Below are positions 1 through 23,532 of a stretch of 64,000 bases of DNA, piece after piece. Both the position numbers and the translations under genes were made by a program. Within the stretch, counting starts at the first letter, position 1; every line of letters begins with the position of its first letter. Source of the DNA: Methanohalophilus levihalophilus (GTDB taxonomy: Archaea; Halobacteriota; Methanosarcinia; Methanosarcinales; Methanosarcinaceae); NCBI RefSeq assembly GCF_017874375.1, contig NZ_JAGGLK010000003.1, positions 372,001-436,000 of the forward strand, written 5' to 3'. The notes under the pieces were generated by a model that saw nothing but the letters and a program-made list of their open reading frames with translations, did no database searches and was not told where the DNA came from.

Positions 1-728
1 TTCAGGTCAGTCTTTTTGTTCCAAATGTTTTCCTTATTGAAGATAAGCAGAAATCGATATCAATGCTTGAGCCGGGAGAAAGTAAGACTGTTACGTTTGA
101 AATCAGGCCCACAGGGGAATGTGGGGATTGTAATGTATCAGGAAAACTGAATTATTATGATTATTTGGCAAAAGAAAGGTGCGAAATCAATATTGAGAAA
201 AAATCCATTTGTATCATCTGTCCAATGCTGCACCCCGAACCAATCAGTGAAAATGAATGGCGTTCCACTCTCCTTAATTTCACAAAAACAGAGGAAGGCA
301 CAAGGGAGATTGATATGGCCGCTTTTGCCTTATTTGAAGTTACTTCCGACATCTTTCAGGACATGAACCTCTACATGCTTGAACCGAAGATCACTGAATC
401 TCCAAATCTATATCGTGCTGTAACAAGATTTTATGGTGAGGGAGTCAAAAACCTGAAATATGCAGCACAGATTGAAGTTGTTGGCGGAGAACAAAAATCT
501 CGTTTGATTCTCAAAGCATGGGCCGAAAAAGAGGAAGCTCTTACAGGTTTCTATCACGGTATGCTTGATGAAATAGAGAAAAGAATACACGTGAAAGAGC
601 TTATCGATAGTACAATAGTTTACAATTTCCACTATGGTGACAACGTTGAAACCACAATCACTGACTCTCTTGTGCAAAGGTCAAATATTGGGCTTAGTAA
701 GCATGGGGCTTCTCCTTCAAGTGATTAA
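1..728 (+). CDS. Hypothetical protein, 5' truncated by window edge
   Basis: The frame is open from base 3 to the TAA at 726-728, giving 241 visible residues. The ATG at 63 is internal to the open frame, so the real start lies upstream of the window. The first 60 or so visible residues are beta-rich, with a phrase LEPGESKTVTFEIRP of the kind found near the end of CARDB-like immunoglobulin-fold domains. Two cysteine pairs follow (CGDC and CIIC). The remaining 170 residues are a mixed alpha/beta region with no motif I recognise. No signal or membrane segment is visible in this part. Function unknown. Confidence 0.7.
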   Translation, partial: QVSLFVPNVFLIEDKQKSISMLEPGESKTVTFEIRPTGECGDCNVSGKLNYYDYLAKERCEINIEKKSICIICPMLHPEPISENEWRSTLLNFTKTEEGTREIDMAAFALFEVTSDIFQDMNLYMLEPKITESPNLYRAVTRFYGEGVKNLKYAAQIEVVGGEQKSRLILKAWAEKEEALTGFYHGMLDEIEKRIHVKELIDSTIVYNFHYGDNVETTITDSLVQRSNIGLSKHGASPSSD

Positions 729-22595: not shown

Positions 22596-22868
22596 ATGAA
22601 ACCAATAATCGTTTATGTTACAGTTCCTGATTCTGCTGAAGGAGAGGCAATTGCAACGGCACTCGTGGATAGGAAATTAGCAGCATGTGTTAACATGTAT
22701 CCAATTCAATCTGTATTTGTCTGGGAGGGTGAAACTTCTCATGAGTCTGAAGTTGTGATGTTTATCAAGACAACCGAAGACAAGTTCGGAGAAATAAAGG
22801 ATACGGTAAAAAGCCTCCACAGCTATGACTTACCTGCAATTGTTTATTGGGAGATAAAAGGGGAATAG
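22596..22868 (+). CDS. cutA: CutA family protein with in-frame UAG; probable extension to 22922
   Basis: CutA1 is a small trimeric signalling-like protein linked to divalent metal tolerance. The 90 residues before TAG start MKPIIVYVTVPDSAEGEAI and contain RKLAACVNMYPIQSVFVWEG near 27-46. The HSYDLPAIVYWEIKGE end corresponds to HPYEVPEI... in relatives. Relatives continue about 15 residues further with a YLxWI-type helix. Immediately after the TAG the frame reads [17 protein letters not shown] before a TGA at 22920-22922, restoring that conserved end. The product with one residue at UAG would be 108 residues, the normal length. This is the only gene in the window I find ending in TAG. The extension overlaps the convergent cofC end by 47 bp. 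Confidence 0.85.
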   Translation: MKPIIVYVTVPDSAEGEAIATALVDRKLAACVNMYPIQSVFVWEGETSHESEVVMFIKTTEDKFGEIKDTVKSLHSYDLPAIVYWEIKGE

Positions 22869-22875
22869 AACTATA

Positions 22876-23532
22876 TCAATTGGATTGGAACTTCAGTGAA
22901 GGTTGCAGGGGATGAGCTTTGACCCGTCCTTTCCCACCTCTCTTTTTCCCAAAATTAGTCTCTGCGTATTCTTTTGCAAGCCCTTCCCCGTGTAATATCA
23001 GTTCCACGATATCATGAGGTTCGTCAATGTCGGTGCTTGCCATGAAGGAATCATATCTGGCAAGGGTAAGCTCATGCTGGCAGGCGATATCACAATGATT
23101 CTCGAAACTGGAATTATAATACTTGACCCTGAAAACATCGGGTCTCTGTATGTAAAGGATATTGGTACCCCCTCCCTTGCCGGGAACAATGACAATCTCC
23201 TCCTCACTTGAAATGATTTCACGGATGTGCTTAGGTTGTACAAGAGGAAGATCCGCCATTATGATTAAAACCGGTTCATCCTGGTTGTTAAGATACCGGT
23301 TGAGAGCTTCGTTAAGATCTGCTTCATCCTTTATTATGGATACTTCAAGTCCCTCATCAACATCTTCGGGGTGCGGAGTAAGGATATCAATTTTTGTTAT
23401 TCCTGCTTCACTCAGGCTTCCAATTACATCCTTTAGCATGAGCTCAACAAACGTTTCCCTCTGGGACTTTGTCATAACATTTGAAAGCCGGGATTTGGCG
23501 TTCTCCTTCTTGTAAGGAATAACCGCTCTCAT
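22876..23532 (-). CDS. cofC: CofC: 2-phospho-L-lactate guanylyltransferase
   Basis: F420 biosynthesis: activates 2-phospholactate with GTP to lactyl-2-diphosphoguanosine for transfer to FO. The 218-residue protein has a nucleotidyltransferase fold, with the N-terminal motif [16 protein letters not shown], the acidic metal motif [14 protein letters not shown] near 90-103 and [11 protein letters not shown] near 117-127. The start overlaps cofH by four bases (ATGA), completing the cofG-cofH-cofC operon. The C-terminal tail is basic and longer than I would expect. Confidence 0.92.

Follow-up and report, generated by a model that had tools for sequence, protein, structure and literature searches.

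The small metal-tolerance gene cutA carries an in-frame TAG shortly ahead of its conserved end in the methane-producing archaeon Methanohalophilus levihalophilus, and this UAG, ordinarily a stop codon, is very probably decoded as pyrrolysine, the 22nd amino acid, by tRNA-Pyl at a neutral, variable site, which would yield a 108-residue CutA. The gene lies in a 64,000-nucleotide stretch of contig NZ_JAGGLK010000003.1 (positions 372,001 to 436,000; hereafter, the window). We favor pyrrolysine because the genome encodes the full pyl machinery and because UAG also lies inside many of its ordinary genes. Our direct observations comprise the sequence, this machinery, the genome-wide pattern of TAG use, the sense codons of relatives, and the lack of any sign of decay, with the TAG itself read from one strain; from these we infer pyrrolysine as the inserted residue, the efficiency of its decoding, and the neutrality of the site.

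The interrupted cutA gene

An in-frame TAG at positions 22866 to 22868 of the plus strand ends a 90-codon ORF that begins with ATG at 22596, and the same frame then stays open to a TGA. The features of the locus, in window coordinates, are as follows.

22596..22865, plus strand: cutA codons 1 to 90, upstream of the TAG (ATG-start ORF; Pfam CutA1; solved CutA homologues)
22866..22868, plus strand: in-frame TAG (UAG), codon 91, proposed pyrrolysine (sense codons aligned in relatives; AAG [Lys] in the remnant of genome G002)
22869..22919, plus strand: cutA codons 92 to 108, conserved C-terminal stretch past the TAG (Pfam match reaches residue 99; top-ranked TAG-followed 11-mer)
22920..22922, plus strand: TGA, probable true cutA stop (same frame, 17 codons past the TAG)
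22876..23532, minus strand: convergent cofC, encoding 2-phospho-L-lactate guanylyltransferase (TIGR03552, 190.7 bits, residues 2 to 186 of 218)

An earlier note on this DNA had pointed out both the TAG and the open frame beyond it, and the sequence confirms them. It put the resulting shortfall at about 15 residues; the truncation at the TAG is correct, but the missing part amounts to 17 residues plus the residue at the UAG.

The match to the Pfam CutA1 profile (PF03091) runs continuously across the TAG, from residue 4 to residue 99 of the protein and from position 1 to position 98 of the 99-position profile, with 113.8 bits against a cut-off of 22.4, and this full-length match places the protein in the CutA family. 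Scored alone against the NCBIfam CutA equivalog NF041095, the window CutA reached 103.6 bits, below the cut-off of 120; based on the Pfam family and the alignment, the gene is filed here as CutA and not as an NF041095 equivalog. Solved CutA chains, including the best homologue, 1p1l, also align across the TAG position. Using a position matrix of the CutA C terminus built from relatives, we scored all TAG-followed 11-mers in 464 kb of this genome. The 11-mer directly 3' of the cutA TAG ranked first of 6,748, with a score of 12.2 compared with 10.2 for the runner-up.

An AlphaFold2 model of CutA, built from a five-sequence alignment, had low confidence from residue 89 onward and is too uncertain to place residue 91. 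A stable RNA structure of the PYLIS type is absent 3' of the UAG, where folding was less stable than the shuffle mean (z-score, +0.89).

The site in relatives

We compared cutA across the 112 genomes of the family in our collection, which include Methanolobus-type methanogens; eight genomes belong to the genus, and the window genome, G000, has a size of 2.1 Mb. CutA was found in 100 of the 112 genomes, and among these 100 only the window genome has TAG at codon 91. Across 31 aligned relatives, the TAG column is occupied by S, G, P, T, R, N, K, E, A, I, or D, and a stop codon occurs at this site in none of the 31, which is the outcome that the earlier note would have expected of readthrough. 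A scan of genome contigs for closer CutAs returned only Methanolobus proteins with 48 to 53% identity, none nearer.

The alternative that the UAG is a genuine stop and the 90-residue CutA a working, shorter protein is quite unlikely. Just the last 17 residues would be lost, and UAG can terminate translation in relatives, for example at the end of pylB, where it is already known (PMC2933860). However, every aligned relative extends past the site, most of them with the YLxWI-type C-terminal segment that had been recognized beyond the TAG, and nearly all matched solved CutA chains also reach beyond it. A genuine stop would moreover not preserve CutA-like sequence past the TAG, the overlap with cofC aside.

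A catalytic pyrrolysine of the methyltransferase type was also considered for CutA and was ruled out, given a site that varies among relatives and has UAG in one genome only. In a different genus, a genome with pylS (G016) has two CutA copies, one of which contains a TAG at another place (C14:24693-24983; L040). This TAG sits in the RKLAACVN motif, where other sequences mostly have Leu, and the second CutA copy of the same genome is without a TAG.

The nearest relative, G002, keeps the cutA locus, and its gene is a remnant from which about 75 codons are gone. The TAG position itself is occupied by AAG (Lys) in the surviving remnant AIVYWKIIGEKNHINWIRTSVNAARD. A point mutation in a sense codon probably created the cutA TAG, and the lysine codon of the remnant would make a single A-to-T change, from AAG to TAG, the simplest origin. 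The G002 locus (L126:1410-1532) contains only this 3' part of cutA, plus two adjacent cofG-like genes.

Intact gene or decaying remnant

The loss of most of cutA in G002 indicates that CutA is dispensable in that lineage, and dispensability is the main caveat to readthrough as pyrrolysine. The window cutA could then be a recent pseudogene, with the TAG as a nonsense mutation and the downstream match as a fossil, and the several family genomes with no CutA match, though many of them are incomplete, point in the same direction as the G002 deletion. We consider this unlikely. A relative-rate test of the window CutA versus that of a congener (G006) was balanced with each of eight outgroups (chi-square, 0 to 1.1), showing no excess of changes, and against PF03091 the window CutA scores 112.3 bits, on a par with congeners (106 to 112). 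No second lesion was found across the 108 codons, so that the window cutA displays neither the faster change nor the further lesions of a nonsense pseudogene. In addition, TAG would not be an effective stop in this genome, as the single-copy genes for CfbD and phosphoenolpyruvate (PEP) synthase carry it (see below). These sequence comparisons argue against old decay of cutA and leave room for a very recent inactivation.

The 47-bp overlap of the cutA tail with convergent cofC, noted earlier, is real; cofC partly constrains the tail and may slow the loss of CutA-like residues. That cofC rather than cutA has kept the downstream match is very unlikely, even though the cofC tails of the window and G002 are partly similar. 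The last 32 cofC residues fall outside the TIGR03552 match and vary among congeners. The coordinates place the wobble positions of cofC opposite the second positions of cutA codons, so the CutA residues are not set by cofC, and most of the sequence coding for NYI falls beyond the overlap. Constraint from cofC would at most explain persistence after a mutation, not the CutA-like match itself.

Pyrrolysine machinery

In the window genome, a tRNA-Pyl gene (anticodon CTA) lies upstream of pylS, with pylB, pylC, and pylD after it, and the PylS, PylB, PylC, and PylD proteins each exceed their NCBIfam cut-offs. The earlier note had suggested pyrrolysine and a search for these genes; its reading is well supported, given the complete pyl set and the lack of a stop at the site in any aligned relative. 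Within the family, pylS is present in 100 of 112 genomes. The window genome also has two MtmB genes with an in-frame TAG (GMAVOGPE) and one MttB gene with an in-frame TAG.

On sequence alone, an alternative is that another suppressor or a near-cognate tRNA inserts a standard amino acid at UAG in this genome. Given the presence of tRNA-Pyl (CTA) and the whole pyl set, we regard this as highly improbable; the argument rests on known machinery.

A third MtmB-family protein of this genome (C1:629393-630742, minus strand; L146) is without pyrrolysine and apparently has Met at the corresponding position (GMALMG versus GMAVOG). In most of the family genomes sampled, pylB ends in TAG (e.g., L059:1243-2298, minus strand), despite the rarity of TAG stops in the genus. 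Past this TAG, the frame stays open for 12 to 42 codons, towards or over the pylC start. In four genomes of genus g5 and two of genus g10, pylB ends further downstream, in TGA and TAA, respectively.

UAG use across the genome

We sampled 864 kb of the window genome in stretches (the 464 kb used above and a second 400 kb), or 41% of the whole. TAG ended 9 of 396 ORFs of at least 120 amino acids (aa) in the 464 kb and 6 of 335 in the second 400 kb. In the 464-kb sample, TAG terminators made up 2.3%, where triplet frequency predicts 16.9% (P = 9e-21), and two congeners show the same depletion. The avoidance of TAG as a stop, first surmised from the window, is thus borne out. In the window, TAG ends none of the ORFs of at least 100 aa; lowering the limit to 60 aa brings in just cutA, which the earlier note had named as the sole case, and a doubtful ORF at 408-677 (minus strand).

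Most TAG ORF ends in the sample are internal, with profile matches that continue across the TAG. An in-frame TAG interrupts ten further conserved non-methyltransferase genes in the sampled part of the genome. These encode CfbD (TIGR03282, 555.7 bits), a DUF2119 protein, two HD proteins, CcmF_C, MarR, a beta-helix protein, PEP synthase (TIGR01418, 1178.6 bits), a geranylgeranyl-reductase-family protein, and a TPR protein. CfbD and PEP synthase are each encoded by a single-copy gene. The cfbD TAG is at codon 229 (C1:98444-99553, minus strand; L068:18444-19553), a site at which relatives have E, K, S, A, G, and other residues and none of those examined has a stop. CfbD is required for coenzyme F430 and hence for methanogenesis, which makes sense decoding of the cfbD UAG very likely. 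The PEP synthase gene (PpsA) has its TAG at codon 451 (C1:615208-617616, minus strand; L172:15208-17616), where three relatives have T or N.

A homology control for interior stops gave raw counts in this genome of 6 TGA, 6 TAG, and 1 TAA. We then sorted the cases by hand, a post hoc judgement, and TAG was the only interior stop left in true genes. The TGA and TAA stops seemed to lie in 5' leaders preceding the real start, or in ORFs that are antisense or doubtful, and two of the TAG cases (C2 372014 and 399349) also appear antisense. This control replaced a codon-usage scan for coding on either side of each stop type, which was uninformative because same-frame adjacent genes and antisense ORFs dominated it.

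UAG appears, on these patterns, to behave as a sense codon genome-wide, with no recoding signal particular to cutA. The broader proposal, that UAG is essentially a pyrrolysine sense codon throughout the genome and that pyrrolysine is part of core single-copy enzymes such as CfbD and PEP synthase, we regard as evenly balanced.

In G002, in-frame TAGs occur in a CDP-alcohol-phosphotransferase-like gene, adjoining the DGxDG motif, and in a 191-codon gene (C7:90299 and C9:69713; L131 and L135), and the habit thus seems common to its clade.

Proposed decoding of the cutA UAG and known systems

We propose that tRNA-Pyl competes with release factor for the cutA UAG and decodes it without any special signal. 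The chief useful product would be a CutA of 108 residues whose pyrrolysine, at position 91, falls in a variable stretch just ahead of the conserved C-terminal segment; some CutA truncated at 90 residues is probably made too. The mixture of the two forms perhaps shifts with methylamine supply. The TAG would be tolerated in cutA because UAG is scarcely a stop in this genome and is read as sense. When a UAG was introduced into a bacterial reporter in Methanosarcina acetivorans, full-length, pyrrolysine-containing product was obtained at 20 to 30% (PMC2933860).

The closest known parallel is Thg1 (tRNA-His guanylyltransferase) of M. acetivorans, which contains pyrrolysine (Heinemann et al. 2009, PNAS; PMC2933860, PMC8211752). 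Like cutA, it is a non-methyltransferase gene with a single in-frame UAG acquired in one lineage. The Thg1 UAG is translated as pyrrolysine, which is dispensable for activity and has been ascribed to neutral evolution. The two cases concern different genes and lineages, and Thg1 was tested by experiment, cutA by sequence only. The methylamine methyltransferases MtmB, MtbB, and MttB share with cutA the in-frame UAG and the decoding machinery; in these enzymes, however, pyrrolysine is a conserved active-site residue, whereas the CutA site is variable and has UAG in one genome only. A CobN-like read-through ORF of M. acetivorans, outside methylamine metabolism, has also been predicted (Chaudhuri and Yeates 2005, PMC1242214). 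Its UAG, like that of cutA, aligns with various amino acids of homologues, although the gene is another one, and both cases are predictions. A neutral origin has been discussed as well (PMC3639795). Our literature search for cutA together with pyrrolysine found no relevant paper. We conclude that cutA is probably a Thg1-type instance, set in a genome that seems to use UAG nearly as a sense codon.

Pyrrolysine was long believed to be limited to methylamine methyltransferases and a few oddities. In 2025, archaea were reportedly found that read all TAG codons as pyrrolysine. The window genome resembles them in having few TAG stops and many ordinary genes that contain TAG, a likeness that rests on the 41% sample. 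A neutral cutA site together with UAGs in single-copy core enzymes makes the capture of UAG as a sense codon testable, and the same setting does so for the essentiality of the pyl genes beyond growth on methylamines. If UAG is a genome-wide sense codon, the pyl machinery would be needed on any growth substrate, not on methylamines alone. Gene callers shorten such proteins: CutA is left without its conserved end, and in annotation the CfbD and PEP synthase genes would look broken. Elsewhere in this genome, a 532-codon ORF without a Pfam match (L179:15440-17038, minus strand) is integrase/recombinase-like and contains two in-frame TAGs.
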